Of a DNA stretch of 64,000 nt, positions 18,582 through 44,697 are shown one piece after another. The stretch's first letter is position 1. Each line of letters opens with the position of its first letter. The notes beneath the pieces were generated by a model. The model did no database searches and was not told the origin of the DNA. It was given only the letters and a program-made list of their open reading frames with translations. The DNA is from Flavobacterium sp. JAD_PAG50586_2 (GTDB lineage Bacteria; Bacteroidota; Bacteroidia; Flavobacteriales; Flavobacteriaceae): NCBI GenBank assembly GCA_023213215.1, contig CP096136.1, forward strand, positions 1,302,001-1,366,000, read 5' to 3'. A program made the translations under genes and the position numbers.

Positions 18582-19348
18582 TGGCTTCTATTTTTTGGGT
18601 AAGTTCAATGAATTGTTCTACCGTAAGTTGCTCCGGACGGAGGTCAAAGATAGTGTCTTCTTTTAAATTATCCGAAAGGTTAAAGGATTTTAAGCTATTC
18701 CTTAAGGTCTTGCGGCGCTGTTGGAATCCGGTTTTTACTACCGAAAAGAATAATTTCTCATTGCAGGGCAACGTAAAATTTTCCTTTCTACGCAGGCGTA
18801 AAACACCCGAATTTACTTTTGGCGGTGGATTGAAAACAGTTGGTGGAACCGTAAATAAATATTCCGCTTCATAAAACGCCTGGACCAAAACTGATAATAT
18901 TCCGTAGGCTTTAGTTCCTTTTTTTCACAGATCCTTTCGGCAACTTCTTTTTGGAACATTCCTGAAAATTCGGGAACCTGGTGGCGTAATTCCAAACATT
19001 TGAAAACTATCTGAGACGAAATATTATAGGGAAATTGCCAATGATGGCAAAAGGCTTCCCTTCAAAAACTTCGTTGATGTTGTATTTCAGAACGTCTTTT
19101 GAAATGATCTTTCCGTGCAGTTGTGGATAATGTGCATTCAGGTATTCTACCGAATCGGTATCAATTTCGATGACATAGGTAGTGGTTGGTTTATCCAAAA
19201 GATACTTGGTCAACACCCCCATTCCGGGACCGATTTCCAACGTAATGTCGTACCCTTCAAAATTTAAGGTGTCGGCTATATTTTTGGCAATGGATTCATC
19301 TGTTAAGAAATGCTGCCCGAGATGTTTTTTGGCTCTTACGTCGTTCAT
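18571..19348 (-). CDS. rsmA: 16S rRNA dimethyladenosine transferase (two frameshifts)
   Basis: RsmA (KsgA) dimethylates two adjacent adenines near the 3' end of 16S rRNA during 30S maturation. The N-terminus [19 protein letters not shown] and the SAM motif [15 protein letters not shown] are standard. The catalytic GNFPYN reads GNFPII because one base is missing near 19027-19032. A second shift in a seven-T run (18919-18925) interrupts [18 protein letters not shown]. After both repairs a normal C-terminal part follows ([17 protein letters not shown]) and ends inside mgtE. An essential-type housekeeping gene with two simple indels argues for sequence errors. Confidence 0.93.
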
Positions 19349-27054: not shown

Positions 27055-27330
27055 CTAAAACAGGTTAAAGTCTATCTTAATTTTTTTATCAAGAAGCCTG
27101 AGAATTTTTAAGGAATTTTTTTCTTTCCTAATTTTTTTAAAAAAATCAACGTAATCTATTTCTAAAATTTCGAATAATAAAACCATGTGCTTTACTGATA
27201 ATTCAACTTTTCCAGATTCTATTCTAGCATAATAGCTTTGAGAAAAATCTAGCTTGGAGGCAACATATTCTTGAGAATAATTTTTGGAGAGACGATGTGC
27301 TCGAATTGAATTTATGATCCTCTGTACCAT
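27055..27330 (-). CDS. XRE-family transcriptional regulator
   Basis: A 91-residue DNA-binding protein with one XRE helix-turn-helix: IRAHRLSKNYSQEYVASKL then QSYYARIESGKVELSVKH. It ends in a helical tail with many Lys and Asp residues. The frame extends to 27381, but MVQRIINSIRAHRL at 27330 matches the usual start of such proteins. It is transcribed away from the first precursor-peptide gene, whose promoter region carries a 15-base palindrome that is repeated before the second precursor. It is thus the natural candidate regulator of the peptide cassette. A similar regulator lies at 62866-63132. Confidence 0.85.
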   Translation of the reverse strand: MVQRIINSIRAHRLSKNYSQEYVASKLDFSQSYYARIESGKVELSVKHMVLLFEILEIDYVDFFKKIRKEKNSLKILRLLDKKIKIDFNLF

Positions 27331-27409
27331 AATTAATAGTTTTAGTTTTATTATAGGTAGTGGGGAATACAATATTAACAATAAATAAAAAGAATAAAAA
27401 ATAATAATA

Positions 27410-27424
27410 GTTCTAATTTAGAAC
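27410..27424. promoter_or_regulatory. Operator palindrome, copy 1
   Basis: GTTCTAATTTAGAAC is a 15-base palindrome around a central base. It sits 10 bases before the -33 TTG of the first precursor promoter. The identical sequence lies at 29149-29163 at the same distance from the second promoter. Confidence 0.65.
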
Positions 27425-27434
27425 TTATGGGTTA

Positions 27435-27466
27435 TTGACTTATGTAAGTAAAGTTTTTAAGATTTG
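27435..27466 (+). promoter_or_regulatory. Promoter of precursor peptide 1
   Basis: TTG at 27435-27437 and TAAGATTTG ending at 27466, the -7 box having one extra base relative to TAnnTTTG. The whole block is repeated before precursor 2 at 29174-29205. It leaves an mRNA leader of about 80 bases. Confidence 0.5.
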
Positions 27467-27551
27467 TGACAGGTTGGTACTCCCCTGATTCATTGTGCAC
27501 GTGAACCATTGGGAATCCATTAAAATATTTATTATCTTAAAATCTAAAAAC

Positions 27552-27776
27552 ATGAAATTAAGTTTAGACGCACTTAAAGAAAGAGCAGAAGCTACTGCTT
27601 CAAATGATTTACTAACGGAAATATCTGGAGGACTAGATAATGCCTGTCATGACGCACCAACCGTATGGACGGTTGACTTCTCAAGCTGCGGACAATCAAA
27701 CCCTACGGGACAACAGATGTCAATGTCAGCATTTTTGGATGCAGTAGGGCAGTTTTTCATAAGAACTGGCTTATAA
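27552..27776 (+). CDS. Double-glycine precursor peptide 1
   Basis: A 74-residue secreted-peptide precursor. The leader MKLSLDALKERAEATASNDL runs on to a Gly-Gly at 26-27, the cleavage site expected for C39 peptidases. The core is about 47 residues and begins LDNACHD, with cysteines at 32 and 46 of the precursor and an aromatic, amphipathic C-terminus. The frame is open upstream to 27495. I chose the ATG at 27552 because the leader is shared almost exactly with the precursor at 29289 from that Met. The operator and promoter lie upstream, a hairpin and an aspartyl protease gene downstream. The C39 exporter at 33185 is the likely partner. Modified peptide or bacteriocin-like role is inferred. 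Confidence 0.85.
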   Translation: MKLSLDALKERAEATASNDLLTEISGGLDNACHDAPTVWTVDFSSCGQSNPTGQQMSMSAFLDAVGQFFIRTGL

Positions 27777-27786
27777 TATTAATAAT

Positions 27787-27815
27787 ATTAAGACTGTCTT
27801 TAAGGACAGTCTTAA
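27787..27815 (+). terminator. Hairpin between precursor 1 and its protease
   Basis: TTAAGACTGTC pairs with GACAGTCTTAA in a long stem without a strong T tail. It could act as a partial terminator or an mRNA-stabilising 3' end, so that peptide mRNA outnumbers protease mRNA. Confidence 0.6.
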
Positions 27816-27833
27816 TTAATAATCTATTTCAAC

Positions 27834-29021
27834 TTGTTTGGTTCATCTAAAACTGAAAAAATTATATCGCTGTTATTATTTATGGCTTTATTTGGTTCCT
27901 GTACAATATTTAGACAGAAACATGAATATTTTATAAATGAAGCGCTGGAAACAAACTTACAATTAAATGATTCTATCACAATAAATGGAATATTTGATAC
28001 CGGTTCTTCACTTTTTTGTATTGATTCATTAATAGTTAATAAACTGAAAGTCAAAAACTATTTTTTCCATAATATATCTGGCGTTGGAGTTTCATCTAAA
28101 AAAGCCATGATTGTCACTGACACATTAAAAGTTACGGTGGCAAATAATCACTATACGTCATCTATCACAACAGTTACAGACATTAAGCGGTTTGCTGGGA
28201 GAAAACTTGATGCAATATTAGGCAATATGATGTTCAGTGAAAATATGGTATTTGTAAGTTCAGAACAGAACTCCCTAGAAATTATAAAAGACAGTTCTGC
28301 AATTAATTTTTCAGAATACAAAAAATTACCGTATAAATACATTAACGGTAAATTAATAATAGACGCCAAGATTGATATTGACAATAATCTTTCATTCAAT
28401 GGGAAGTTCCTTCTTGATACGGGGTTTAATGGTCAGCTATACCTAAACAAAAATTTACAAGATAAGTTTAATATAGAAAGTAAAATAAAGAAGAAAGCCT
28501 ACTATTGCTCAACCACTAATGGTATTGGGGGTAAATCAGAGGGATTTCTATTTAGTGCAAAGTCAATTCGCTTTGCCGCATTTAAGCTGGATAAAATTGC
28601 TGCGGATTGTACAAAAGATACCACTGGAGCTTTTGCGAGAAATAAAGATTTTGATGGCATGATCGGTCATGGGATTCTGAAAAAATTTGATGTGATTTTT
28701 GATTTTAGGAATCAGGTAGTATACTTAAAACCGGGTAAAGAATTTACCAAATTATCAGCGAGACCAAAAGTAGGTTTTTCATTTGTTGACAGAACCGATT
28801 TAAACAAGGGGTTTATTGTTAATTCAATAGTTAAAGAAAGTAATGCTGAAAAAGCCGGATTGCGGCTAAACGATGAAATAGTTGTTTTTAATGGAGCCAG
28901 GGTTGAGAACGAGGGCGTTGATTTTATTAAAGAAATTAATACGCAAAAAATTGTAAAGCTCATTGTTAAACGCGGAACTGAATTTGTAAATATCACATTT
29001 AAGAAGTCTTCTCTTTACTAA
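27834..29021 (+). CDS. Lipoprotein aspartyl protease (retropepsin-like) with PDZ domain
   Basis: Probable periplasm-facing, lipid-anchored peptidase of 395 residues. The N-terminal hydrophobic stretch ends in a lipobox, LFGSC, near residues 19-23. Two catalytic-type motifs are present, FDTGSS near residue 55 and LLDTGFNG near residue 193, each with downstream hydrophobic-Gly (LDAILGN, FDGMIGHG). This is the layout of a two-lobe clan AA protease. A PDZ domain closes the protein (KGFIVNSIVKESNAEKAGL, LNDEIVVFNG). Start is a TTG at 27834; no better start is in frame after the stop at 27813. It follows precursor 1 and has a paralogue after precursor 2. It may trim the exported core or protect the cell by degrading it. 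Confidence 0.85.
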   Translation: MFGSSKTEKIISLLLFMALFGSCTIFRQKHEYFINEALETNLQLNDSITINGIFDTGSSLFCIDSLIVNKLKVKNYFFHNISGVGVSSKKAMIVTDTLKVTVANNHYTSSITTVTDIKRFAGRKLDAILGNMMFSENMVFVSSEQNSLEIIKDSSAINFSEYKKLPYKYINGKLIIDAKIDIDNNLSFNGKFLLDTGFNGQLYLNKNLQDKFNIESKIKKKAYYCSTTNGIGGKSEGFLFSAKSIRFAAFKLDKIAADCTKDTTGAFARNKDFDGMIGHGILKKFDVIFDFRNQVVYLKPGKEFTKLSARPKVGFSFVDRTDLNKGFIVNSIVKESNAEKAGLRLNDEIVVFNGARVENEGVDFIKEINTQKIVKLIVKRGTEFVNITFKKSSLY

Positions 29022-29148
29022 ATTTTATTTAACATTGATTTCTACATCAAGTTTGCTATACAAAGAAAATCCTATAGAATTATTCCATAATGTGGCAGTT
29101 TCTTCTTTATAGAGTGCGGGAGTAAAAGTTTAACAAAAAACAACAATA

Positions 29149-29163
29149 GTTCTAATTTAGAAC
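29149..29163. promoter_or_regulatory. Operator palindrome, copy 2
   Basis: GTTCTAATTTAGAAC, identical to 27410-27424 and 10 bases before the TTG of the second precursor promoter. Confidence 0.65.
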
Positions 29164-29173
29164 CAATGTGTTC

Positions 29174-29205
29174 TTGACTTATGTAAGTAAAGTTTTTAAA
29201 ATTTG
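29174..29205 (+). promoter_or_regulatory. Promoter of precursor peptide 2
   Basis: TTGACTTATGTAAGTAAAG then TAAAATTTG ending at 29205, nearly identical to the promoter of precursor 1. Confidence 0.5.
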
Positions 29206-29288
29206 TAGCATGTTGTATTCCTTGATTCATTGTGCACATGAACCATATGGAAAAAGCTAAAATATTTTATAACCTTAAAAATTTAAAC

Positions 29289-29492
29289 ATGAAATTAAGT
29301 TTAGACGCTCTTAAAGAGAGAGCAGAAGCAACAGCTTCAAATGATTTACTATCGGCAATATCTGGAGGACTAGATAATGCTTGTCATGATTCTGGATCAG
29401 GTCAAGGTATCGCTGACTATATCCATGGTGCGCAAACCTTGTCTGACACTCAAATCGTTCGCGATTTCATTAGAATAATGACAGGAAACTAA
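29289..29492 (+). CDS. Double-glycine precursor peptide 2
   Basis: A 67-residue precursor with the same leader as precursor 1; only residues 22-23 differ (SA for TE) up to residue 34. Gly-Gly is at 26-27. The core of about 40 residues again begins LDNACHD, but then diverges completely (GQGIADYIHGAQTLSDTQIV) and has a single cysteine. Conservation of the leader plus the first core residues, with a free remainder, points to one exporter and possibly one modifying enzyme handling both peptides. It is followed by a strong terminator and a second aspartyl protease. The ATG at 29289 was chosen to match precursor 1; the frame opens at 29232. Confidence 0.85.
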   Translation: MKLSLDALKERAEATASNDLLSAISGGLDNACHDSGSGQGIADYIHGAQTLSDTQIVRDFIRIMTGN

Positions 29493-29501
29493 ATTGAATA
29501 T

Positions 29502-29540
29502 AAAGCTGAGTCAGGATTATTTCTGGGCTCAGCTTTTTTA
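29502..29540 (+). terminator. Intrinsic terminator after precursor 2
   Basis: AAAGCTGAG (29502-29510) pairs with CTCAGCTTT (29528-29536), followed by T residues. Expression of the downstream protease would need read-through or another promoter. Confidence 0.8.
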
Positions 29541-29556
29541 GATAAAACACTAATTA

Positions 29557-30753
29557 ATGAAGAGTTTTTTTATAAGTATATTTTATTTCCTTTATTTTTT
29601 TACTTCCTGCAACTCATTGATAAAGAAGGATAATCAGTATGCTGCCGTAGACTATGATTATCATTTGTATTTGAATGCAGCCCTAAATGACAGCATAAAT
29701 CTTAAATTGATTTTAGATACAGGAGCGAATGGGTTTTATATAGATTCCACTTTTTGCAATAAAAATAAAATGAAGGCTAATATATCTTCTATTTATGTTA
29801 GAGGCGTTGGAGAAAAAAACAGCAGGTATCAATATTGAATAATCATTCCACCCTTAACCTTAATAATGAAATTAAGCCGTATGATAAAATCCCAATCTTG
29901 AATCTAAAAAAGATCATAGGTTCAAAAATAGATGGAATTATAGGCAATGATTTTTTCAGAGATAAAATCGTATTTATAGATTACCATAAAGAAGAAGTTA
30001 AAATATCAAATGATATTAAAAATGTTAATTTGAAGAACTTTTACGTATTCCCGTTTACTCAAGATATTACTAAAGGGGTAGTAATAAATCTGAATTTAAA
30101 AATTGACAATAAAGACTTTAAAGGGAATTACCTTGTTGATACAGGAAGCCCTCAGTTTTTAACCTTTACAAAAACAACAGCTCTTGAAAGACGTTTAGAC
30201 ACAATAAAGAGCAAGAAAAAATTTACTCCGAAAATTATGGTATTGGTGGAGCTTCTATGGGCTACGTTTTTCCTTCAAAATCATTAATGTTAAACAATGT
30301 TGAAATTACTAATCCTGTCTTCGATTTCTCTATAGATAAATCAGGCAGCTTAAGTGGAAGTGAGGATTATTTAGGGATTATTGGAAATCGTTTTCTGGAA
30401 AATTTTGTTGTAATAATTGACTATAAAAATTCTATTCTTTATTTAAAGCCTAATAATGACGGCAATAATAAGTTTGAAGATAAATATGCACAACGTTTTC
30501 TAGGCTTTTCATCAATTGACAACACATATTCATCCGAAGGATGGATTGTTTCAGGATTATTTGAAAATGAGAAAAATCAAGGATTGGAATTGGGAGATAT
30601 TATAATAAAAGTAAATAAAGTATCTACCACAAATATCCTTAGAAAGGATTTTTATAAAATGTTTAATAGAACTGTAAATGAATTAGAGATTATAAGAAAG
30701 AATCAAAGATTAAATGTAGAGTTTAGAAAAAAATGTTCTATGATGAAAATTGA
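29557..30753 (+). CDS. Second lipoprotein aspartyl protease with PDZ domain (frameshifted)
   Basis: Paralogue of the 27834 protease. The lipoprotein signal MKSFFISIFYFLYFFTSC starts at 29557. Motifs are ILDTGANG and LVDTGSPQ (the two lobes), SKIDGIIGNDFF and YLGIIGNRFLENFVV, then a short PDZ (GLELGDIIIKVNKV). The frame breaks in a seven-A run (29813-29819; eight A gives GEKKQQVSILNNHS) and a four-A run near 30233 (five A gives TPKNYGIGGASMGYVF). As read it then continues without a stop into the next protein. An eighth A in the run at 30726-30732 would instead end it ...VEFRKKMFYDEN at 30753, overlapping the next ATG by 14 bases. I favour separate genes. Role as for its paralogue. Confidence 0.75.
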
Positions 30754-31870
30754 TAATTTATGTCATTCTGCATTTGTAGACACGATAAAGATTCTCTTGT
30801 ACAAGGAAGAAAATGAAATATTCGAAAAAATAAACTTTGATGAAGACGAAATATTTTTAGACCCATTACTATTTGCTTACCTTAACAATAAAAGAGACAC
30901 TTCATTCTCGAAAGAAACACTTTTGGAAATTGTACAAGGTCATTACATTAAAGAGGAGCCTCTGCTGATTGATCATTCTTTAAATAAGGATGGAATAGCG
31001 TATATTCCAAATCTTGGATATTTTGACAAACAAGGAAACAAGTCTGAAGATATTTTTAAAATTGACAATTTTGAAATTTTAAAGACGATTCATCCTGTTC
31101 TAGAAAAATATTTTGTAGAGTTTTACAAAGGTCATATTGTAAACCAAAATCCAAGCCATAAATCTGTTTGGAAAGAAAATTATAAAGAATTACAACATTC
31201 TATCCATATTATCAAAGAGCATTTACCAGAATTCTACAAAGAATTACTATTTGCTAACAGAAAAATTTATCTGCATGATAATCCAAAGATTTTAAACTTT
31301 GCAACTGTTGAAACATTAGGGATGCTATACTTCTATGTTATAGGAAACAGTAATCTTATCTATTATATTGAAGAATTGATTCATCAGGGCTCGCATAATT
31401 TTTTGTATTACGTAGTACACAATAGAAAGGACTATTTCAAAATTGATGTTGATAATATAATAATGAGAGCCTTAACAAAGCAAGACTGGGATTACCGGAG
31501 TGTTTATGGTGCTTTTCATGGACTATATACCGTTACAAAAAGAGTAGAGTGTTTTGATATACTGCTTTCCAAAAATGTTTTCTCTGGCAAGGAAAAGCAT
31601 GAATTACTTGGACGGCTTACAGATCAATTTAGCCGATTTAGAACAGGATTAGAACTACTTAATCTTGACGAAATCTATACCGAAAAAGGAAAATTGTTCT
31701 ATAATGAACTTGATCAAAAATGTCAATCAATCCTTAGTAAATACAAAATGCTACCATCAATATTTAATCTTAGCAATCGGGATTTAGATTTTAGGTATGA
31801 AGATTTCTGCACATTAAACCCAATAACTGAATTTAACGAAAAAGACGAACAAGGAATTTTTAAATTTTAA
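30740..31870 (+). CDS. aKG/HExxH-type peptide beta-hydroxylase-like protein
   Basis: About 376 residues from the ATG at 30740 (MMKIDNLCHSAF). Two blocks recall the aKG-HExxH peptide beta-hydroxylase family. One is IYYIEELIHQGSHNFLYYVV, where HQGSH keeps the HExxH spacing but has Gln for Glu. The other is YRSVYGAFHGLYTVTKRVE, like the conserved R-P-L-x-G-x-L-H-G-x-Y-A-F segment. Such enzymes use iron and 2-oxoglutarate to hydroxylate Asp, Asn or His side chains of precursor peptides in the cytoplasm. The shared core motif LDNACHD would be a candidate substrate. As read the frame is fused to the protease upstream; see that entry. The Gln substitution leaves an inactive or metalloprotease-like protein possible. 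The family call is from memory of motifs. Confidence 0.55.
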   Translation: MMKIDNLCHSAFVDTIKILLYKEENEIFEKINFDEDEIFLDPLLFAYLNNKRDTSFSKETLLEIVQGHYIKEEPLLIDHSLNKDGIAYIPNLGYFDKQGNKSEDIFKIDNFEILKTIHPVLEKYFVEFYKGHIVNQNPSHKSVWKENYKELQHSIHIIKEHLPEFYKELLFANRKIYLHDNPKILNFATVETLGMLYFYVIGNSNLIYYIEELIHQGSHNFLYYVVHNRKDYFKIDVDNIIMRALTKQDWDYRSVYGAFHGLYTVTKRVECFDILLSKNVFSGKEKHELLGRLTDQFSRFRTGLELLNLDEIYTEKGKLFYNELDQKCQSILSKYKMLPSIFNLSNRDLDFRYEDFCTLNPITEFNEKDEQGIFKF

Positions 31871-31879
31871 TACTCAAAT

Positions 31880-33181
31880 ATGAACAAATTAATGCTTTTG
31901 CTGACTTTAGTAATTGGTCAGGCTGTATTTTCACAAAAACAACAAATAGACTATCTATTTACCAATGTAAACATTGTTACAATGAACAATGAAACTATAT
32001 TAAAAAACAAGGATGTTGCCGTTAAGGATGGGAAAATTACAGGGATCGTAAACACAAAAAAAGGTAGTTATGAGCCTTTAAAAACAATTGATTGCAAAGG
32101 AAAATATTTAACTCCAACATTGGCAGATGCACATGTTCATCTTCCAGACGATGAAAAGGAACTTGAAAAAGTATTAACTCTTGATTTAATTAATGGGGTT
32201 ACAAAAATACGCTCGATGAGAGGAGACATTAAGCATCTGGAATGGAAGAAAAAATATAATGCACCAAATAGTATATATCCAAAAATGTACCTGTCGGGTA
32301 TTCCTGTTCATAGAAGCCAGGATTTTACCAATGAACAACTTGAACAATATGTAAAAAGCTCAAAATCTGCTGGATTTGATTTCATTAAAATTTTGAGTAT
32401 TAAGAATAAAGATATTTTTACACAGCTTGATAAACTGGCTAAAGAGAACAATATTAAAATGGCAGGGCATTTTCCTAGTGACCCTAAAGGAGTAGTAATA
32501 TCGGATGAGATTATTTTCAATTCTAATCTAAATTCAATGGAGCATTTGGGAGGTTTGATAGGAGAACCGGCAAGCTTTGAAAGCAGGATAAAATCAATGA
32601 AAGAGAAAAATGTATTTTCATGTCCAACATTAAGATGGTATGAAATTGCTTATGGTGAATTTGACTTAAATCTTGTTCAAAAGCAAAGAGGCATCGAGTA
32701 CATTGACCCAAAAATAGTTGCATCATGGGTTGATAAGACAACTAAGTATAGAGAAAAAATGGGAGAAAAAGCCCTTGAAGAAGAATTGGATTTGTATGCA
32801 AAAGAAATAGATGAAAGACTTAAAGTAATAAAAAGATTGAACTCAGAAGGCATAAAACTTTTACTAAGTCCAGATAGCAGTTCGAAATTTATAGTCCCGG
32901 GCTTTGGAATGATGCAAGAAATGCAATTATATAAGAAGGCAGGATTGTCAAATTTTGATGTCTTGAAATCTGCAACTGTTAATTACGCAAATTATACTAA
33001 TGACTCATCTTTTGGGACAATTGAAACAGGAAAGAATGCTGATTTTTTAATTTTAAGTAAAAATCCTTTAGAAAATATTCAAGCATTGGAAAGTATAGAA
33101 GGAATCTTTTTCAATAATAATTATTTAAATAAAACGAAATTAGAAGAGTTAGCTAATTCTGTTTTACCATCCAAGAATTAA
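31880..33181 (+). CDS. Exported amidohydrolase-superfamily enzyme
   Basis: A 433-residue metal-dependent hydrolase with signal peptide MNKLMLLLTLVIGQAVFSQ, so it acts in the periplasm. Metal-site features of the TIM-barrel superfamily are DAHVHLPD near residue 82, the lysine region SAGFDFIKILSI, GHFPSD, NSMEHLGG and LLLSPDSSS, with the closing small beta domain (GTIETGKNADFLIL). Imidazolonepropionase-like and dipeptidase/carboxypeptidase-type members share this plan. It starts 9 bases after the hydroxylase-like gene and ends 3 bases before the exporter, so it belongs to the operon. A role in trimming or destroying exported peptide, or in self-protection, is inference. Confidence 0.85.
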   Translation: MNKLMLLLTLVIGQAVFSQKQQIDYLFTNVNIVTMNNETILKNKDVAVKDGKITGIVNTKKGSYEPLKTIDCKGKYLTPTLADAHVHLPDDEKELEKVLTLDLINGVTKIRSMRGDIKHLEWKKKYNAPNSIYPKMYLSGIPVHRSQDFTNEQLEQYVKSSKSAGFDFIKILSIKNKDIFTQLDKLAKENNIKMAGHFPSDPKGVVISDEIIFNSNLNSMEHLGGLIGEPASFESRIKSMKEKNVFSCPTLRWYEIAYGEFDLNLVQKQRGIEYIDPKIVASWVDKTTKYREKMGEKALEEELDLYAKEIDERLKVIKRLNSEGIKLLLSPDSSSKFIVPGFGMMQEMQLYKKAGLSNFDVLKSATVNYANYTNDSSFGTIETGKNADFLILSKNPLENIQALESIEGIFFNNNYLNKTKLEELANSVLPSKN

Positions 33182-33184
33182 ATA

Positions 33185-35377
33185 ATGTCAAAGAATAAGT
33201 TTCCTCATTACAGGCAGTTGGACTACAGAGATTGTGGTCCAACTTGTTTACGGATGATTGCTAAATTCTATGGTAAGACTTTCTCAAGGGAATTTCTTAG
33301 AGATAAAGCAAGCATAACTAGGTCTGGTGTTACAATGGCTGGAATTGCCGAAGCTGCTGAAGCAATTGAAATGAGGACGCTTGGAATGAGGGTTTCACTT
33401 GAGAGTTTAGTAAATGAAGCTCCTACGCCATTTATAGTTCCCTGGAGGCAAAAGCATTTTGTTGTTGTCCATAAAACATCAAAAGACAAAATATTTGTAG
33501 CAGATCCTGCTCAAGGATTGCTCACTTACTCTCATCAAGACTTCAAAACAGCTTGGACTAATACAACAGACGAAAATGGTTTTGTTCTTTTATTAGAGCC
33601 CAATACTAGCTTTTATGAATTAGAAGAGGACAAGACAAAGGCAAAAGGATTTTCCTTTTTATATCCCTATTTCCGACCTTATAAAAAATTAATTAATCAA
33701 CTCTTTATAGGGTTGCTAGTTGGTACTGCTATACAATTCATTTTGCCATTTTTAATGCAAAGCGTTGTTGACGTTGGAGTTAACAACAGGGATATTCCGT
33801 TTATCTACTTAATTTTAATTTCTCAATTTATATTAATCCTGTCGCAGACCTCTGTTAGCATCTTCAGAGAATGGATATTGATTCACATAACCAGTAGGTT
33901 TAATATAAAAATGGTTTCAGATTTTCTATATAAAATGCTCAAGCTCCCTGTAAATTATTTTGAAACCAGAAATACCGGAGAGCATTTACAGAGAATAACT
34001 GACCATACCCGTATTCAAAACTTTGTATCCTCTTCAACATTGAATATGTTGTTTTCCATGATAACATTTGTCATTTTCAATGGTATATTGGCATATTATG
34101 ATTTGACTGTTTTCTTAGTCTTTATATTATCCGCAGTTCTATATGTAGGTTGGACATTTTTCTTTTTGAAGAAAAGAGCAGAACTGGATTTTAAAAGATT
34201 TGATGAACAATCTCAAAGCCAATCGTCGTTGATTCAAATAATTAATGGCGTGAAAGAAATAAAAATCAATAATTCCCAGCGTAAGAATAGATGGAAGTGG
34301 GAGTTTAATCAGATAAGCCTTTTCAAAACATCACTAAGCACTTTGAAATTAGCACAATACCAAGCAATTGGTTCTAACTTTATTAATGAATTTAAGAATA
34401 TTGTTATTACGTTCTTATCTGCTAAAGCAGTTGTTGATGGTAACTTAACACTTGGAATGATGACATCGATACAATTTATCGTTGGTCAGTTGAATATGCC
34501 TTTGGGAAGTTTTGTCGCTTTTATACAAACGTGGCAAGATGCAAAGATAAGTTTAGAAAGATTATCACAAGTTCACACCAGAGAAGATGAAGATGTAATT
34601 TCCTCTGATAAGAGTAAAGAATTACCAAAAAACAAATCCATTATCATAAAGGATTTATCGTTTAGATATGGTGGAAAATCAACTCCTTTCGTTTTAAAAA
34701 ACATAAACTGCATTTTACCTGAAGGTAAAACAACAGCTATAGTTGGAGCTAGTGGAAGTGGAAAAACCACCCTTTTAAAATTATTATTAAAATTCTATGA
34801 ACCAACTAAAGGTGCTATTTTAATTAATGACAATGATTTAAATAGCATCAACAATGATTTTTGGAGAATGAATTGCGGTGCCGTTATGCAGGACACTTTT
34901 ATGTTTAACGACACAATAGCGGGTAATATTTCTGAATCAGAACAAAATGAAATCATCGATAGGGAAAAATTAAAAAATGCTGCATTCGTTGCTAATATTG
35001 ATGACTTTATTGAAAAATTACCAAACAAATTCAACACAGAACTAGGCACATCAGGAATGAGGTTAAGTGGAGGTCAGGAGCAACGGCTAATGATAGCAAG
35101 GGCAGTTTATAAAAATCCGTTTTACATGTTTTTTGATGAGGCAACCTCTGCCCTTGACACCAATAATGAAAAAGTCATAATGGAAAATCTGAACAACTTT
35201 ATTCATGGAAAAACTGCGGTAATAATAGCCCATAGATTAAGTACTGTCAAAAATGCTGATAACATTATTGTCCTTGAGAACGGTGAAATTGTTGAGCAAG
35301 GAAATCATATAGAACTTACTAAGTTAAAAGGCAAATATTATGAATTGGTTAAAAACCAATTAGAACTAGGAAATTAA
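33185..35377 (+). CDS. Peptidase-containing ABC exporter 1 (C39 domain)
   Basis: Inner-membrane exporter that cuts double-glycine leaders and pumps the core out (730 residues). The C39 peptidase has catalytic Cys17 (DYRDCGPTCLRM), His91 (KHFVVVH) and Asp108 (VADPA). Six membrane helices span about 160-440. The ATPase domain has Walker A GASGSGKTT, signature LSGGQEQR, Walker B MFFDEATSALD and the H-loop AHRLST. All catalytic residues are present, and there is no frameshift. It lies in line with the amidohydrolase and, one base later, the HlyD adaptor. The two LDNACHD precursors are its likely substrates. Confidence 0.95.
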   Translation: MSKNKFPHYRQLDYRDCGPTCLRMIAKFYGKTFSREFLRDKASITRSGVTMAGIAEAAEAIEMRTLGMRVSLESLVNEAPTPFIVPWRQKHFVVVHKTSKDKIFVADPAQGLLTYSHQDFKTAWTNTTDENGFVLLLEPNTSFYELEEDKTKAKGFSFLYPYFRPYKKLINQLFIGLLVGTAIQFILPFLMQSVVDVGVNNRDIPFIYLILISQFILILSQTSVSIFREWILIHITSRFNIKMVSDFLYKMLKLPVNYFETRNTGEHLQRITDHTRIQNFVSSSTLNMLFSMITFVIFNGILAYYDLTVFLVFILSAVLYVGWTFFFLKKRAELDFKRFDEQSQSQSSLIQIINGVKEIKINNSQRKNRWKWEFNQISLFKTSLSTLKLAQYQAIGSNFINEFKNIVITFLSAKAVVDGNLTLGMMTSIQFIVGQLNMPLGSFVAFIQTWQDAKISLERLSQVHTREDEDVISSDKSKELPKNKSIIIKDLSFRYGGKSTPFVLKNINCILPEGKTTAIVGASGSGKTTLLKLLLKFYEPTKGAILINDNDLNSINNDFWRMNCGAVMQDTFMFNDTIAGNISESEQNEIIDREKLKNAAFVANIDDFIEKLPNKFNTELGTSGMRLSGGQEQRLMIARAVYKNPFYMFFDEATSALDTNNEKVIMENLNNFIHGKTAVIIAHRLSTVKNADNIIVLENGEIVEQGNHIELTKLKGKYYELVKNQLELGN

Positions 35378-35378
35378 T

Positions 35379-36662
35379 ATGGAAGAAACTGATGGTTTAA
35401 AAATATATAGTGAAGAAGTTAGAGATGTACTTTCTGACCCACCAAAAGCTATTTTAAGATGGGGTAATACCATATTATTTGGTTTTATTTTGTTGCTGCT
35501 TTTAATTTCATGGTTTATAAAATATCCTGATGTAATTAACACACAAATTGTAGTTACAACCAATATCCCTCCTCAAAGATTAGTTGCTCATACTTCAGGA
35601 AAAATAGACGCAATCCTGGTTAAAGATAAAGCAATTGTTAAGAAAAACACACCGCTAGCGGTTATTGAAAATTCGGCTAATTATTCAGATGTTTTTTTAT
35701 TGAAAAGCATTATTGATTCTATCAATATTGAGAAAAGCAGTTTCCCTTTTGAAAAATTAAGTAGCGCACAATTAGGAGATATTGAAAGTAGTTTTGCAGT
35801 ATTTCAAAAAGAGTATAGCATTAGTGAACTAAATACAAAATTACAACCGTATAAAGTTGAAGGAACTGCTCAAAGTTATGAAGCTGTACAGTTAAGAGAA
35901 AGATTGAATTTACTTGAATCACAAAAAAGTATCAATCAAAATGAATTGGTGTTGCAGAAGAGTGATCTAGACCGTTATGAGACTTTATACAAAAAAGGAA
36001 TCATCGCTACTCAAGAAGTTGAAAAGCAACGTTTAGAATATCTACAGGCACAAAAAAACTATAAAAACCTACTTAGTACTGTTTCACAATTAAAGTCGTC
36101 TTTAAACGAATTAAACCGAAATAGTAAAACAACAAAAATCAACGAGAATAAGGAAAATGTAAATTTAGAGCGCAATGTTTTACAGGCTCTCTACGGACTT
36201 AAAAAAGCAATAAAAGATTGGGAGATAAATTATTTATTACGTTCCTCGATTAATGGCAAAGTTTCTTATTTACAACTTTGGGCAGAAAATCAAACTGTAA
36301 ATGCTGGAGACAATGTATTTGCAATAATACCAAGCAATGAAAATGGATACATTGGAAAAGCCAAAGCGTCAGCACAAAACTCGGGTAAAATAAAAGTTGG
36401 ACAAAAAGTAAATATCCGATTGGCAAATTATCCAGACAGGGAATTTGGAATAGTCCAGGGTACCATTAAAGCCATATCCCTAACTCCCGATAAAGAGGGT
36501 AATCTATTAATTGACGTTGCTTTACCTAGCGGACTTCAAACCTCCTATAAAAAGAAAATAACATTTCAACAGGAAATGAGCGGAACAGCAGATATTATAA
36601 CTCAGGATTTAAGATTGATAGAAAGATTGTTATATCAGTTTAGGGATATTTTCAGAAGATAA
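35379..36662 (+). CDS. HlyD-family periplasmic adaptor 1
   Basis: Membrane-fusion protein of 427 residues linking the exporter to an outer-membrane channel. One membrane helix at about 30-48 (ILFGFILLLLLISWFIK) follows a short cytoplasmic tail. A lipoyl half-motif with PPQRLVAHTSGKIDAILVKD comes next. A long coiled coil spans about 125-275, and the barrel domain near 290-400 has NGKVSYLQLWAENQTVNAGD. It is a close paralogue of the protein at 43411. The coding end and the following roughly 60 bases are identical in the two copies. No TolC-like gene is in the window. Confidence 0.93.
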   Translation: MEETDGLKIYSEEVRDVLSDPPKAILRWGNTILFGFILLLLLISWFIKYPDVINTQIVVTTNIPPQRLVAHTSGKIDAILVKDKAIVKKNTPLAVIENSANYSDVFLLKSIIDSINIEKSSFPFEKLSSAQLGDIESSFAVFQKEYSISELNTKLQPYKVEGTAQSYEAVQLRERLNLLESQKSINQNELVLQKSDLDRYETLYKKGIIATQEVEKQRLEYLQAQKNYKNLLSTVSQLKSSLNELNRNSKTTKINENKENVNLERNVLQALYGLKKAIKDWEINYLLRSSINGKVSYLQLWAENQTVNAGDNVFAIIPSNENGYIGKAKASAQNSGKIKVGQKVNIRLANYPDREFGIVQGTIKAISLTPDKEGNLLIDVALPSGLQTSYKKKITFQQEMSGTADIITQDLRLIERLLYQFRDIFRR

Positions 36663-36844
36663 ATCTTAAAATAACAAGGTTATTATCTTATTTCTGCTCA
36701 AACCCCATCAATCGATATAAAGATAATGGAACGGCTTTTAATGCTATAATCCTCAATAGGTTCATTTGGAATTCAAGATCAAATATAACTAATTATCTAA
36801 CTGTTTCGAGACCAATAAGGGTAACGTTTTATCCTTAACTGTTT
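36531..36844 (+). repeat. Direct repeat, copy 1 (3' end of HlyD gene and downstream region)
   Basis: From 36531 I find no mismatch to 44566 onward for about 188 bases, across the HlyD stop codon. One mismatch and about 50 more identical bases follow. Similarity then continues with small differences to about 36844. Elsewhere the two HlyD genes differ at many codons, so this block is unusually conserved. Confidence 0.9.
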
Positions 36845-37206
36845 AAAAAATAAACTGTTACGGTTCGAGACTCAGTCAGTAGCGGGAGCATAAAAAGAGT
36901 AACGTGAAAATGTTGCTCTTTTTTTATGCCTTATACTTTCCTATGCTCCTGATGGTTTTCAGCCTAATACCAGGATTTCCAAAGTTATATTATAATTGCC
37001 AATTTATTAAAAAAAGGCATACAATTAGGTTGCAACTTATAATTCTCTGGGTTGCATTTATCATACATAAAAACACGCTACAATGAAGCAGAAGAGTCTA
37101 TTTGCTAAATCATTTAGGGTATTTAATTTTTAAAAATGTACACAAAAAGTGTACATTTTATAAAGATGAAGTTTTTAATTTTGAAATGTCAACACAAACA
37201 AATACA
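36663..37206. other. Gene-free region between the two peptide-export cassettes
   Basis: Holds the non-coding tail of direct repeat 1 (to about 36844), a strong hairpin terminator (36888-36929) and roughly 270 AT-rich bases without a gene I trust. A 60-codon hydrophobic frame at 36904-37086 starts within the terminator and is not convincing. Confidence 0.6.
36888..36929 (+). terminator. Terminator of the first export cassette
   Basis: GCATAAAAAGAG and CTCTTTTTTTATGC close a long stem with inner AAC/GTT pairs, ending in a run of seven T. Confidence 0.75.
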
Positions 37207-38123
37207 ATGAAAAAAATAATTATACTCTTATTTTTAATCACGATAGTTATAGTTTCTTGTAAATCTCAAAATCAAAGAGAATTAGTAGGGCAACCTGTAA
37301 AACACGATGTTAATTACATCCCGTATTATTTAAAAGTTTACGAAGCGGATAGTCTGTACATAATAAAAGAATATAGTAAGAGTTATTCAATATTGGATAG
37401 TTTATTTAAAGTATATCCACCAGTGAATTTAAATATATACAATGAAGTTTTAAATTATTTGCAATTAAAAATTATTTTGAACAAGAGTGTTGATGATATT
37501 GAGCTTTTAAAGCTAATTAGTTATTACGGTTACAAAAAGGAGTTTATAGTTAATGATTCTATTCTTAAATCGTCAAAAAAATGCGCTTACTATTATCAAA
37601 ATATGATAGTCAAAGAACAATTTATATTGGTAATATTAATTTACGACTCAGAAACGAAATTAAGGAAATGAAGTCACAGGATCAGTTTTACAGAAAAAAG
37701 GATTATAAGTCTAACATAGACAAACAAAAAATTATTGATTTAAAAAATCAAAAAAGGTTAATTGAAATTTTTGATAGATATGGATATCCCAATAAAAAGA
37801 TAATTGGCGGATATAATATCGACAACGACAATGTTGATATAACTGTTATGTTATTACACACTAACGATTCTATAAGAAGGGAATATTTTATGCCCAAAGT
37901 ATTAGAATACATAAAGCATGGAGAAGCTTCACCTGAATTGTATGCAAATTTGCATGACCAGCTTTTATTATATAACGGTGAAGATCAGTATTATGGTTCT
38001 TATGAAAATAAAGTTGACATCCCAACTAACGAATTAAATAAAAGAAGAAGAAAAATAGGGATGCCAAATTATGGATACCAAAAATGGAGGCTCAATACCA
38101 TATATCCAGATCAAGAATATTAA
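37207..38123 (+). CDS. DUF6624-type lipoprotein (one frameshift)
   Basis: Probable lipid-anchored periplasmic protein of about 305 residues. The lipobox is VIVSC after MKKIIILLFLITI. The C-terminal half has the DUF6624 pattern: DRYGYPNKKIIGGYN, REYFMPKVLEYIKHGEAS, LLLYNGEDQYYGSYE and NKRRRKIGMPNYGYQKW. The frame breaks in a seven-A run near 37574-37580. An eighth A joins SSKKMRLLLSKYDSQRT. The ATG at 37207 gives the clean signal sequence. It sits directly before the four-cysteine precursor, the position where an immunity protein often lies, but that role is only inferred. Confidence 0.75.
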
Positions 38124-38227
38124 TCAATAAATTATAACTGAGTAAAAGAAAATTATTTTGGCCAAAAATAATAGGAGTAAGCCGAAAAGCCTTTAAGTGA
38201 GTAGGTGAATATTTTAATTTAAAGAAA

Positions 38228-38476
38228 ATGACAAATTTCAAAAAACTTTCGAGAGAAGAGTTAAGAAACACTTTTGGCGGAAAATCATGTAAGCTTGTAG
38301 TGCCTAATGGTAGTGGGGGTTATGATACTTTAGTGGGAAATTGTGACACTTATACTACTGTAAATTCTATACCAGTAGGTGATTTAATGCCTGGTACCAT
38401 TACTAGATCGTTTTGTAATGTTGGTAATAACGTATCGTATTCGCTTTCTTCAAATGGGGGAAACTCGAGATGCTAA
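38228..38476 (+). CDS. Double-glycine precursor peptide 3, four cysteines
   Basis: An 82-residue precursor with a ComC/bacteriocin-type leader, FKKLSREELRNTFGG, and Gly-Gly at 17-18. The core of 64 residues is rich in Gly, Ser, Asn and Thr. It carries four cysteines (21, 39, 63, 82), the last being the C-terminal residue, which fits two disulfides. The leader differs from precursors 1 and 2. It is followed by a hairpin, then by a TlpA-like thioredoxin, a VKOR-type oxidoreductase and a C39 exporter, exactly the enzymes a disulfide-bonded secreted peptide would need. Likely a bacteriocin-like peptide; activity unknown. Confidence 0.88.
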   Translation: MTNFKKLSREELRNTFGGKSCKLVVPNGSGGYDTLVGNCDTYTTVNSIPVGDLMPGTITRSFCNVGNNVSYSLSSNGGNSRC

Positions 38477-38487
38477 TCTTTTAAAAA

Positions 38488-38521
38488 TTTATGGAGAGAG
38501 GCGTATACCTCTTTCCATAAA
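38488..38521 (+). terminator. Hairpin after precursor 3
   Basis: TTTATGGAGAGAGG pairs with CCTCTTTCCATAAA (one mismatch). There is no T tail, so it is better seen as a processing or partial-termination hairpin between a highly expressed peptide gene and the downstream operon. Confidence 0.5.
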
Positions 38522-38547
38522 TTAATAAGTGTTTTAAATAAAATAAC

Positions 38548-39696
38548 ATGTTGAAAAAAATCAAATCCAGTGGAAACTGGATATTTCAAATTAAGACGAG
38601 ACAGTATCGTTATTTTCTTCTATTTGTTATAACTATAACTTTTTATTCTTGCAAAGAAGAAAATCAGATAGAGATTAATGGAAATCTATCGAATTTGCCG
38701 GATGGAATGATGTACCTGTGCCAGGATAACGGGGTAAATAAAGTCGATAGTGTAAAAACAGTTAGTGGTAAATTCAATTTTAATTACACAATAAAAAACA
38801 AAAGTCGAGAACCTGTCTATTTCTGTCTTCATCATATCGATAACGAGGGAAATTTTAAATTTATCAGTTTTCCTACATACGCAAAATACCGTGAAGGAAA
38901 GTGGTTTTCATCAATGTTCCTGTCAGATTCAATCGTTACTATCGATGGTGATTTGGTTGATGTCCAAACCATTGGAATAAAATTTGATCCAAAAACAAAA
39001 ATGGTGCACTGCCCCAACATTATAGGGGGTTATCAAACAAATGCAATGTTTCATGTGAATGGAGATTTAATGGATAATTTTAACAAAAACACCTATGGGA
39101 AAATGGTGGAATATATTAAGCAATATCCTAAATCATTTCATCTTTTATATGAGATAAACAACAACCGCAATAGCTTTTCAGCAACTCAGATTGACACTTT
39201 ACTAAATTTATTCAAGGGACCAATTATGGATAGCGACACTTTTAACAAACTAAAAGACTATAAAGATAAAAGGCTTAGCAAAAAACCTAATGTACCACTA
39301 CTATCGGATAACGAAGGCAACAGAGTAAATGTTTTGGATGCAAAATTTAAAAAACACATCGTTGTTTTCTGGGCAAGTTGGTGTGGCCCTTGCAGACAGG
39401 AAATACCCACATTGAAAGAACTATATCCACTGCACCAAAAAGACATTGAATTTGTTTCCATCTCAATTGATGAAAATGATTCTGCATGGCAAAAAGCTTT
39501 AGAAAAAGAACAAATGCCATGGAAACAACTTATATTAAAAGAAAAATCAGCAGAATATGTCAATATGGAAATTATTTTCCAGTTAAGTCCCTCTATTCCA
39601 TATGTAGCTTTAATGGATAATGACTTTAATGTTGTAAGATCCCATGTCGGGTTAATGACAGATAGAGAAATGGAAATTTTTTGGAAGATTAAATGA
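38548..39696 (+). CDS. TlpA-like thioredoxin lipoprotein with DUF4369 domain
   Basis: Membrane-anchored periplasmic thiol-disulfide protein of 382 residues. A lipobox TFYSC lies near residues 31-35. A DUF4369-type beta domain follows (IEINGNLSNLPDGMMYLCQD). The C-terminal AhpC/TSA-thioredoxin domain has the redox motif ASWCGPCRQEIPTLKELYP near residue 279 and a late cis-Pro block, SPSIPYVALM. TlpA-type proteins usually reduce or isomerise disulfides. Its stop overlaps the start of the VKOR-type gene (ATGA), so both are co-translated. Expected client here is precursor 3. Confidence 0.9.
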   Translation: MLKKIKSSGNWIFQIKTRQYRYFLLFVITITFYSCKEENQIEINGNLSNLPDGMMYLCQDNGVNKVDSVKTVSGKFNFNYTIKNKSREPVYFCLHHIDNEGNFKFISFPTYAKYREGKWFSSMFLSDSIVTIDGDLVDVQTIGIKFDPKTKMVHCPNIIGGYQTNAMFHVNGDLMDNFNKNTYGKMVEYIKQYPKSFHLLYEINNNRNSFSATQIDTLLNLFKGPIMDSDTFNKLKDYKDKRLSKKPNVPLLSDNEGNRVNVLDAKFKKHIVVFWASWCGPCRQEIPTLKELYPLHQKDIEFVSISIDENDSAWQKALEKEQMPWKQLILKEKSAEYVNMEIIFQLSPSIPYVALMDNDFNVVRSHVGLMTDREMEIFWKIK

Positions 39697-41212
39697 CTAA
39701 ATTAAAAATGGATTTATTCTATAGTAAGCTTAACATTTCCAAAGAAGAGTTTTTATTTCAATTTCAGTCTCATCCCGATTATCCTTCTGCATTAGCATTT
39801 AGCGATACTTTAGATTTTCTAAGAGTAAAAAATGACATCTATGAAGTAGAAAAGCAAAATTGGCAGGAACTACCAAATGAATTTCTAGCAGTTTATAAAG
39901 GTAATTATGCACTAGTTGAGAAACGGAATCAGTATTATTTCGTTTATACCCACGAAAAAGAAAAAGTATCGACTGAGCAATTATACGATAATACAGAAAA
40001 CATTGTAGTGCTTTTTGAATCTAATGAAGAAGGTGCAAGCAATAAGAATTTTGATTATAAATGGTTTAAGTTGTTCATTGTGTTTTCTGTTTTATTTTTT
40101 TCTATTTTAAGCGAGATACAAATTTGCTTGCATTTAATCTACTGAGTTTAGCTGGTATATTTATTTCATTAGAAATATTCAATAGTAAGTTTGGCACAGA
40201 ATCAATGATAATAAATAGCATATGTAACGGAAATGCCAACAATGATTCTAACACTGTAGATAATTGTAAAAAAATCATAGTTTCTGACAAGATCAATATT
40301 CTCGGTTTAAAGCTATCTGATTTTAGTTTGATATACTTTTTAAGCGTATTTATATTGGGCATACTTAACCCACAAAATGCATTTTTTCTTAAAATAATTT
40401 CTTATTCAACTACTATTATCATTCTTTACTCCTTGTTTATTCAAATATTCATAGAAAAAGCGTTATGCAAAGTTTGCCTGTTGACTATTTCAATACTAAT
40501 AGGTCACATGTTTATTGCAAATTTGTTACCAGATACTAATTTCAGTTTCGAATTGCTTTCCATTTCTTTATTTGTATTTGCAACAATATTTTTTAATACT
40601 AAATATATCAACGATATACTAAAACAGAAGAATGAATATTACAGTCTAAACATTAAGAACTCAAGGTTCAAAAGAGATTATTCTATTTTCAGAAAAGAGT
40701 TATTGGAAAAACATTTTGAATTTAAAAACAAAAGTGATGCCTTTTTATTTGGTGAAAAAAAGGTAAAACTAAATATTACTCTAATTACAAATCCATTTTG
40801 TGGATATTGCAAGGAAGCGCACAATATTTTAGAAAAACTTATTATTAAATACCCTCATATTTCCGCTCAGATGAGATTCAACCATTTTAAGGACGAAAAT
40901 TTAGAATCAATACTTTCAATTTTTAAAAATATTTATGACAAGGAAGGGGGACAAACTCTTCTAAAATCAATTGCTCTTTGGTATGAAATTAATGACACAG
41001 ACAAGTTTATTAAAAGACATCCCGATTACTCGACAACGACTGACATAAGTGAGATTGTACGATTAAGCGACGAAAATAGAAATTCAGGCTTAACATTTAC
41101 TCCTGTGTTTTTAATAAATAATTATCAATTTCCTAACAAATATGATAAAGAGGATATTTTCTATTTCATGGATGAAATGTTGGAAGATGAAGAATTCTTA
41201 AATGAGAAGTAA
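39693..41212 (+). CDS. C39-like / VKOR / thioredoxin fusion, membrane disulfide oxidase (one frameshift)
   Basis: About 506 residues once joined. Residues 1-110 look like a C39 peptidase domain (FLFQFQSHPDYPSALAFSDT, YKGNYALVEKRNQYYFVY) but have no cysteine, so it is not a peptidase. A VKOR domain with about five membrane helices follows, with cysteines in NSICNGNA, DNCKKI and the active ALCKVCLL. The C-terminal DsbA-like domain has NPFCGYCKEAHNIL. It would re-oxidise thioredoxin-fold partners using quinone and so form disulfides. The frame breaks at ATTTGC near 40120; a fourth T joins IQILLAFNLLSLAG. Its end overlaps the second exporter by 11 bases. Confidence 0.85.
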
Positions 41213-43402: not shown

Positions 43403-43410
43403 TCAATAAT

Positions 43411-44697
43411 ATGGAAAATCAAGATACCTCTTTTGAATTAAGAAGTGAGGAAGTACAGGAAATACTTACCCGCGTTCCACATCGATTGATACGATGGGGT
43501 TCATCAGTTATTTTTGGTATTCTACTCATCCTTTTCTTTGTTTCATGGCTCGTTAAGTATCCTGATATAGTTTCCTCTCAAATTGTAATTACAAGCAATT
43601 TACCACCTCAAAAATTAGTCGCCGTTACCTCTGGAAAAATAGAAGTAATTCTCGTAAAAGATAAAGAGGCGATTTTTAAAGATACACCATTAGCAGTAAT
43701 AGAAAACACAGCTAATTATAAAGACGTTTTTCTACTAAAAAGTATAGTTGATACTATCAATATAGATAATTGTAGCTTTCCTTTTGAAAAATTAAGCAGT
43801 GCTCAACTAGGAGATATAGAAAGTAGTTTTGCAGTATTTCAAAAAGAATATAGCGTATCAGAATTGAATACAAAACTGCAACCTTTTAAAGTGGATGGAA
43901 CAGCTCAAAGTTATGAAGCTATTCAATTAAGGGAGCGATTAAGTTTATTGGAATCACAAAAGAGTATCAATCAAAATGAACTAGAACTGCAAAAAAATGA
44001 TTTAGACCGCTATGAAACTCTGTATAAAAAAGGAATCATAGCTACTCAAGAAGTTGAAAAACAGCGTTTGCAATACTTACAGGCACAAAAGAACTATAAA
44101 AACTTACTAAGTACCATTTCGCAATTAAAATCCTCTTTAAACGAATTAAATCGAAACAGTAAAACAACGAAAATCAACGAAAATAAAGAGGATGTAAATT
44201 TGGAGCGTAATGTAATACAAGCTTTCTATGGATTAAAAAAGGCTATAAAAGATTGGGAATTAAATTATGTTCTCCGATCTTCAATAGATGGGAAAGTATC
44301 CTATTTACAACTTTGGGCGGAAAATCAAACCGTAAGTGCTGGCGAAAATGTTTTTGCTATAATACCAACCAATGAAAATGGTTACATCGGCAAAGCCAAA
44401 GCACCGGCACAAAACTCAGGTAAAATAAAAACTGGTCAAAAAGTAAATATCCGATTGACCAATTATCCTGATAGGGAATTTGGGATAGTCAATGGTACAA
44501 TCAAGGCCATATCCCTGACTCCAGATAAAGATGGTAACCTATTAATCGATATTGCATTACCTGATGGACTTCAAACCTCCTATAAAAAGAAAATAACATT
44601 TCAACAGGAAATGAGCGGAACAGCAGATATTATAACTCAGGATTTAAGATTGATAGAAAGATTGTTATATCAGTTTAGGGATATTTTCAGAAGATAA
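43411..44697 (+). CDS. HlyD-family periplasmic adaptor 2
   Basis: A 428-residue membrane-fusion protein, very similar to the one at 35379 along its whole length (coiled coil with ELNTKLQPFKVDGTAQSYEA; barrel with GKVSYLQLWAENQTVSAGE). One membrane helix lies near residues 31-48. It starts 8 bases after exporter 2. The final 130 bases of coding sequence are identical to adaptor 1, unlike the rest, which suggests recent exchange between the copies. Confidence 0.93.
   Translation: MENQDTSFELRSEEVQEILTRVPHRLIRWGSSVIFGILLILFFVSWLVKYPDIVSSQIVITSNLPPQKLVAVTSGKIEVILVKDKEAIFKDTPLAVIENTANYKDVFLLKSIVDTINIDNCSFPFEKLSSAQLGDIESSFAVFQKEYSVSELNTKLQPFKVDGTAQSYEAIQLRERLSLLESQKSINQNELELQKNDLDRYETLYKKGIIATQEVEKQRLQYLQAQKNYKNLLSTISQLKSSLNELNRNSKTTKINENKEDVNLERNVIQAFYGLKKAIKDWELNYVLRSSIDGKVSYLQLWAENQTVSAGENVFAIIPTNENGYIGKAKAPAQNSGKIKTGQKVNIRLTNYPDREFGIVNGTIKAISLTPDKDGNLLIDIALPDGLQTSYKKKITFQQEMSGTADIITQDLRLIERLLYQFRDIFRR

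Follow-up and report, generated by a model that had tools for sequence, protein, structure and literature searches.

A predicted double-glycine peptide system of Flavobacterium with a constant Cys-His site, an oxygenase-fold enzyme and exchangeable partner genes

Double-glycine bacteriocins and related peptides have a small core behind a leader ending in GG, and are exported by a C39 ABC transporter together with an HlyD adaptor. We analyzed a 64,000-nt stretch of Flavobacterium sp. JAD_PAG50586_2 (CP096136.1, positions 1,302,001-1,366,000), hereafter called the window, in which a gene cluster with two precursor peptide genes shares all of these features. Unlike the described C39-exported peptides, those of this cluster, known here from their genes, are accompanied by an enzyme of predicted oxygenase fold and begin their cores with a stretch that holds an invariant Cys-His. 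The system is thus predicted to be an oxygenase-fold system resembling those of ribosomally synthesized and post-translationally modified peptides (RiPPs), with a GG leader and C39 export. The exchange of partner genes beside the precursor is its novel part, and their function is predicted.

Two other groups of described systems are close to the cluster. The alpha-ketoglutarate (aKG)-HExxH RiPP enzymes (ChlB/ChlH, PflC, PosC, and PesO; TIGR04267 / IPR026337) share with the enzyme of the cluster the fold, as judged from a structure model, the two motif His residues, and a gene position beside the precursor. However, the motif is HQxxH nearly throughout the family described here, and the members score below the NCBIfam cut-off. 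Moreover, the setting here is a double-glycine leader with C39 and HlyD, whereas the aKG-HExxH enzymes lie in radical-SAM, MNIO or NHLP settings in the parts of the literature consulted. The second group comprises bacteriocin loci that carry a gene for a CPBP (CAAX) protease, SilX being one example; a CPBP gene likewise stands beside the precursor in 5 of 18 related loci. Unlike in the SilX-type loci, the CPBP gene here is one of several occupants of its position, which can instead hold an aspartyl protease, a metallopeptidase-like gene, or ThiF together with an alpha/beta hydrolase, or be empty. In the open-licence full-text literature, no title or abstract opening described this system (the topics covered were aspartyl proteases with double-glycine RiPPs, HExxH RiPPs, CPBP or retropepsin immunity, and GG/C39 systems of Flavobacterium).

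Our favoured reading, to which we assign a probability of roughly 50%, is that the peptides are produced and that the shared HQxxH enzyme would oxidise the Cys-His of both precursors. The shared C39 transporter would then cut after the GG and export the core with HlyD, and a partner protease, matched to each variable tail, would meet the exported peptide in the cell envelope, where it would most likely protect the producer. The features of the cluster, in window coordinates, are as follows.

27055-27381, minus strand: divergent HTH_3 regulator (PF01381, 45.6 bits, cut-off 23), a candidate reader of the palindrome
27410-27424, no strand: palindrome GTTCTAATTTAGAAC 5' of precursor 1, a candidate operator
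27435-27463, plus strand: promoter-like site of cassette 1, a consensus match conserved with cassette 2
27552-27776, plus strand: precursor peptide 1, 74 aa, with leader ...ISGG, LDNACHD, and then a 40-residue tail
27787-27816, plus strand: hairpin 3' of precursor 1 (fold -16.4 kcal/mol, z -6.75)
27834-29021, plus strand: partner protease 1, aspartyl with PDZ (PF13650, 36.1 bits, cut-off 24.3; PF00595, 29.1 bits, above cut-off)
29149-29163, no strand: palindrome GTTCTAATTTAGAAC 5' of precursor 2, identical to the first copy
29174-29202, plus strand: promoter-like site of cassette 2, a consensus match that aligns with cassette 1
29289-29492, plus strand: precursor peptide 2, 67 aa, with leader and LDNACHD as in precursor 1 and a different tail
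29502-29536, plus strand: hairpin 3' of precursor 2 (fold -18.8 kcal/mol, z -4.46)
29557-30739, plus strand: partner protease 2, broken in the assembly (frames 29557-29838, 29835-30287, and 30257 onward)
30740-31870, plus strand: HQxxH enzyme with a predicted fold of the ChlB aKG-HExxH oxygenase domain; start codon uncertain, as the frame is open upstream
31880-33181, plus strand: amidohydrolase, probably exported as judged by eye (PF01979, 47.4 bits)
33185-35377, plus strand: C39 peptidase-containing ABC exporter (PF03412, 110.3 bits; PF00005, PF00664)
35379-36662, plus strand: HlyD-type adaptor (PF13437, 50.6 bits)

A first-pass annotation, made from the letters of this DNA, had placed the unit at 27401-33181. 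Its cassette coordinates were correct, and the unit continues to 36662. The amidohydrolase, the C39 exporter, and the HlyD adaptor that it had listed as completing the unit were all found by domain matches. Among proteins of solved structure, the sequence relatives of the amidohydrolase include the bottromycin amidohydrolase (6i5s) and a possible prolidase (2p9b).

The two precursors had been claimed to have a common leader and the core start LDNACHD. Indeed, both carry MKLSLDALKERAEATASNDLL..ISGGLDNACHD, and their residues 1-37 are 86% identical. As predicted small precursors with a GG-ended leader, they have the feature typical of C39-exported double-glycine peptides. There were 444 precursor homologs in the protein database. 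Among the matches listed, Cys-His lay four residues after the GG in 120/120 precursors, a count biased by a search profile that itself contains Cys-His. A second count was anchored on the enzyme gene. A small open reading frame (ORF) on the same strand with a leader, GG, and Cys-His within 12 residues was present near this gene in 24 of 29 loci, and one on the opposite strand in 0/29; this count avoids the precursor profile, yet its pattern itself demands Cys-His. The five misses were L069, L102, L101, L081, and L075. The L069 contig begins inside the enzyme gene, and the precursor of the same genome sits on L159; L102 is a contig piece of the genome that holds L083; and L101 is decayed. In L081, the peptide near the enzyme reads SACH with no GG, and the surrounding stretch gave no match to C39 or HlyD. 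Since this peptide keeps Cys-His without GG, C39 or HlyD, Cys-His appears to follow the enzyme and not the exporter, which makes it the leading candidate for the site of modification.

The genomes compared comprised a sample of 398 from the same genus (congeneric), 395 from the order, and 247 from the class, with the window's own genome included in the order and class counts. The precursor profile matched 18 and the enzyme 20 of the 398 congeneric genomes, and both were present in 17, a co-occurrence test that ignores kinship. A lone precursor without the enzyme was found in G343. By profile, G088, G158, and G378 have only the enzyme; G088 (L077) and G158 (L081) have divergent Cys-His peptides. 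A GACH subtype was noticed in L077, L098, L099, and L100, with several precursors in three of these four; its neighbours were judged by eye to resemble methyltransferases and enzymes of sugar or aldo/keto type. At L160:7416-7565, a solitary precursor-like ORF ends in ...WCHFWDGIRQYI, in a stretch with no enzyme gene. By eye, the genes next to it recur as neighbours of clusters L073 and L074, so this is likely the same chromosomal site.

The precursor tails were highly variable among relatives. A peptide system with a shared leader, common machinery, and diversified cores, as proposed at first, is supported, and it is larger than a reader of the window could see. Tails linked to CPBP were more hydrophobic than those of the loci without a slot gene (p 0.005), a weak comparison on which we did not rely, since the rows are non-independent (L073 nearly duplicates L074) and the tail lengths differ.

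The structure model of the enzyme has the ChlB-type oxygenase fold (aKG-HExxH domain), which supports, at the fold level, the earlier guess of a hydroxylase. The protein database held 259 homologs of the HQxxH enzyme. Both motif His residues were invariant in the 105 rows of enzyme alignment A4. In alignment A3, the first His was kept in 19 of 20 rows, with Lys in one L071 copy, and the second in 20/20. Searched as a sequence profile against solved structures, the HQxxH family gave no match at E up to 1, and a single-sequence search with the L081 protein returned only a short stretch resembling WD40 repeats. The enzyme may use iron and alpha-ketoglutarate and act on Cys-His. Members of the aKG-HExxH group hydroxylate His, Asp, Phe, Gln or Pro, according to the portion of PMC13060819 consulted, and His hydroxylation is our first guess because ChlH hydroxylates His. 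Two arrangements of the enzyme gene stood out: tandem copies at L071:8628-11045, one being the copy with Lys, next to two precursors with near-identical cores, and P0122 (637 aa), in which a CPBP protease is fused in frame to the HQxxH enzyme.

The first-pass annotation had taken an aspartyl protease with two DTG motifs and a PDZ domain as the defining partner of each precursor, and this did not hold. Such a protease stood beside the precursor in 3 of the 18 congeneric precursor genomes (the window, L067, and L068), none was found beside the precursor in 14, and the neighbourhood in G450 is cut by a contig end. The leaders thus occur without a neighbouring aspartyl protease in most of these genomes, and with three cases and one unsettled, the protease was rejected as the hallmark of the system. 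The pairing of precursor and protease is real in this lineage, where it is one option among several. The conserved element is Cys-His together with the HQxxH enzyme.

Genes of >=150 aa in the partner slot were counted in 18 related loci in which both the precursor and the enzyme could be resolved. Not counted were L077, L098, L099, and L100, which have another gene order, L069 with L159, which lie on split contigs, and L075, L081, L101, L102 (from the genome of L083, on a separate contig), and L164; L039, whose precursor and enzyme lie near each other, was simply passed over. The slot held CPBP in five loci (L037, L038, L073, L074, and L097), with PF02517 above the cut-off in L037, L038, and L097 and below it in L073 and L074. 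It held an aspartyl protease in two (L067 and L068), an alpha/beta hydrolase plus ThiF in two (L070 and L096, both families above the cut-off in both loci), and a Peptidase_MA-like protein in one (L083, match below the cut-off). The two hydrolase/ThiF loci (L070:2513-4637 and L096:9256-11340) each have a Cys-His precursor ending in CDNI, and C-terminal modification is possibly the role of their hydrolase and ThiF. This association ties the partner to the tail; the two ThiF proteins share 56% identity, so that inheritance of the complete set from one ancestor may be the explanation instead. In L101 (7338-9124), an intact CPBP frame lies beside a decayed enzyme and HlyD remnants with no precursor found, as would be seen with an orphan immunity gene, in this one case. 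In the window, residues 1-37 of the two precursors are 86% alike, whereas the proteases are 28-37% alike in pieces. Because the leaders are alike and the proteases diverged, and because C39 would remove the leader, we link the task of the partner to the tail rather than to the leader.

Protease 1 has both DTG motifs, with Asp_protease_2 and PDZ above the cut-off, and is 57% identical to P0002. Its structure model, of modest confidence (predicted local distance difference test, pLDDT, 74), has as its nearest fold in PDB 9iy9, a putative endopeptidase of Bacteroides fragilis with two DTG half-sites as well; unlike 9iy9, protease 1 is encoded within a peptide cluster, immediately downstream of a precursor. 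In protease alignment A6, a Cys follows the hydrophobic N-terminus in 4/4 rows (lipobox judged by eye), and none of these rows departs from the Asp and Gly of either half-site, L067 having DLG as its second one. Export and a lipid anchor are plausible for protease 1. The claim of a two-DTG PDZ lipoprotein protease after each precursor thus stands for the domains and motifs of protease 1, with the anchor plausible only, and fails for protease 2, which is not one open frame and has PDZ below the cut-off. Its pieces are 37, 28, and 33% identical to protease 1, each falls below the Asp_protease_2 cut-off, and the last reads in frame into the HQxxH enzyme. Compared with relatives, five frame changes, all in the same direction, were found at 29557-43402: two in protease 2 and the others in a gene at 37.1-38.1 kb, in genes at 39.7-41.2 kb, and in a second C39 transporter. 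This survey covers the genes with relatives in the loci compared. Since the changes share one direction and the genome has a completeness of 94.56% against about 99% for many relatives, the breaks in protease 2 are likely assembly errors. By eye, an rsmA-like ORF (19007-19348) seems short as well. A further protease relative in G156 (L155) adjoins TPR and HlyD genes at a contig end.

Before each precursor, the identical palindrome reported earlier was confirmed, both copies being GTTCTAATTTAGAAC; at up to one mismatch, these were the only two sites in the 3.8 Mb genome. The HTH_3 regulator gene adjoins the first copy divergently, and the palindromes are likely operators of this helix-turn-helix regulator. 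The near-identical promoters also stood up: the upstream regions of both cassettes align well, and each has TTGACT-N17-TAA(G/A)AT, a type of site no commoner than in shuffles. The hairpin after each precursor was confirmed (z values above), and both hairpins would favour more precursor than protease output.

Several observations weigh against the favoured reading. The slot was empty in 8 of the 18 loci (L064, L066, L071, L072, L076, L078, L079, and L080), and protection would have to lie elsewhere in these eight because they have no slot gene. Where the slot gene is a ThiF homolog, it resembles a tailoring enzyme, so that a slot gene need not mean protection. Nor do the CAAX proteases of bacteriocin loci always confer immunity: according to the part of PMC9298176 consulted, deletion of the CAAX protease SilX gave no angicin sensitivity. 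Protease 2 is interrupted by two frame changes and spreads over three frames. Relatives of the aspartyl proteases occurred in 295/398 congeneric genomes (E up to 1e-12; PDZ not checked). With protease 1 as the single query, the best match outside its own genome was a non-cluster gene in G130 (136.9 bits; G078, 131.8 bits). The cluster-linked proteases as one clade had to be given up, as the tree leaves them unresolved among non-cluster relatives. As for the enzyme, Glu at the second motif position was present in 1/20 rows of A3 and 1/105 of A4, the others, including the window protein, having Gln; because of this replacement, it is described as a fold relative and not filed as an aKG-HExxH peptide beta-hydroxylase. 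Against TIGR04267, four of 20 members matched at E up to 0.1 (best 8.9e-6; 25.8 bits against a cut-off of 40), all members with a score fell below this cut-off, and the window enzyme gave no match to this NCBIfam model. In addition, neither a recognisable Cys-His precursor nor a match to C39 or HlyD was seen around the enzyme of L075. The top profile scores of the cluster-linked proteases were discarded as evidence, the profile having been built from those same genes.

The partner genes may instead serve maturation: the aspartyl protease would trim the core of its own precursor in the periplasm after C39, and the CPBP, metallopeptidase-like, and hydrolase genes would do likewise for other tails. 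We hold this to be a substantial possibility at less than even odds. Each filled slot has at least one protease- or hydrolase-like gene, ThiF and the alpha/beta hydrolase of L070 and L096 look like tailoring of the shared CDNI end, and SilX was suggested to process the peptide rather than protect in the portion of PMC9298176 consulted. However, the eight loci with no slot gene have a similar leader and Cys-His, and the intact CPBP frame of L101 outlasts the production genes. We infer protection ahead of trimming, only slightly. If, on the other hand, the aspartyl proteases were generic envelope proteins placed in the cluster by chance and with no tie to the peptides, their wide occurrence in the genus, the lack of a resolved clade, and the non-cluster best match would be accounted for. 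Nevertheless, three genomes have the gene immediately between that of a Cys-His precursor and that of the enzyme, and the window has two diverged copies, each after a precursor; we consider such chance placement quite improbable.

It is also conceivable, though in our judgement unlikely, that the peptides are signals and not toxins, and that the partner proteases clear or activate the signal. Response-regulator genes lie just 5' of the precursor at L038:8140-8850 and L068:11010-11654 (PF00072 above the cut-off) and at L067:5534-6205 and L083:5588-6244 (PF00072 below it), and HTH_3 regulators are present in the window and L037. However, the high variability of the tails speaks against signalling, and no recurring receptor-like gene was noticed, with no search aimed at one. 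Finally, the HQxxH protein might be no oxygenase but a peptidase, either taking off the leader or cutting the core. Its two-His motif is that of zincin-like folds, and PflC of the related family shows leader-free proteolysis in the part of PMC12636437 consulted; this role is nonetheless regarded as very improbable.

In addition to the genus sample, the enzyme was found in 7/395 genomes of the order and in 4/247 of the class; apart from the window's own genome, three of the six order genomes were congeners. In L164, a class match from another family, GGLMADCH, the enzyme, C39, and HlyD recur within 16.5 kb. The class match L165 has no such context; L166 is a contig of only 3.4 kb, too short to show one. 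The plasmid records gave no match. The exchange of partner genes suggests a large, customisable peptide family. More tentatively, and with considerable doubt on our side, the system may be an undescribed class of exported Bacteroidota peptides, 'Cys-His peptides', with a constant leader, an oxidised Cys-His, and a hypervariable tail. Each type of tail would go with a partner gene of its own, and tail-plus-partner cassettes would be swapped into a fixed modification and export unit, and the lipid-anchored retropepsin-like proteases would be one of at least four partner types, acting as peptide-destroying immunity. The peptide natural products of this bacterial group are poorly mapped. If the favoured reading is true, the rule of leader-GG-...-Cys-His beside an HQxxH oxygenase-fold enzyme would expose hundreds of unannotated peptides, most of them in Flavobacteriales, with another family of Bacteroidia represented at least once. 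A constant site with interchangeable tails would also be a natural library for probing the action of HQxxH enzymes, and the question would be raised whether an envelope aspartyl protease can be a peptide-specific immunity protein.

Other peptide genes were noticed near the Cys-His clusters. In L064, L096, and L159, an unrelated second GG-leader peptide and a long LanB-like gene (by eye) lie divergently beside the cluster. In the window, a second peptide-export cluster follows directly downstream at 38228-44697 (names by eye). It has a precursor-like ORF at 38228-38476 with a TFGG leader and Cys, a TlpA-like lipoprotein, a VKOR/thioredoxin-like protein, a C39 ABC transporter interrupted by a frame change, and HlyD.

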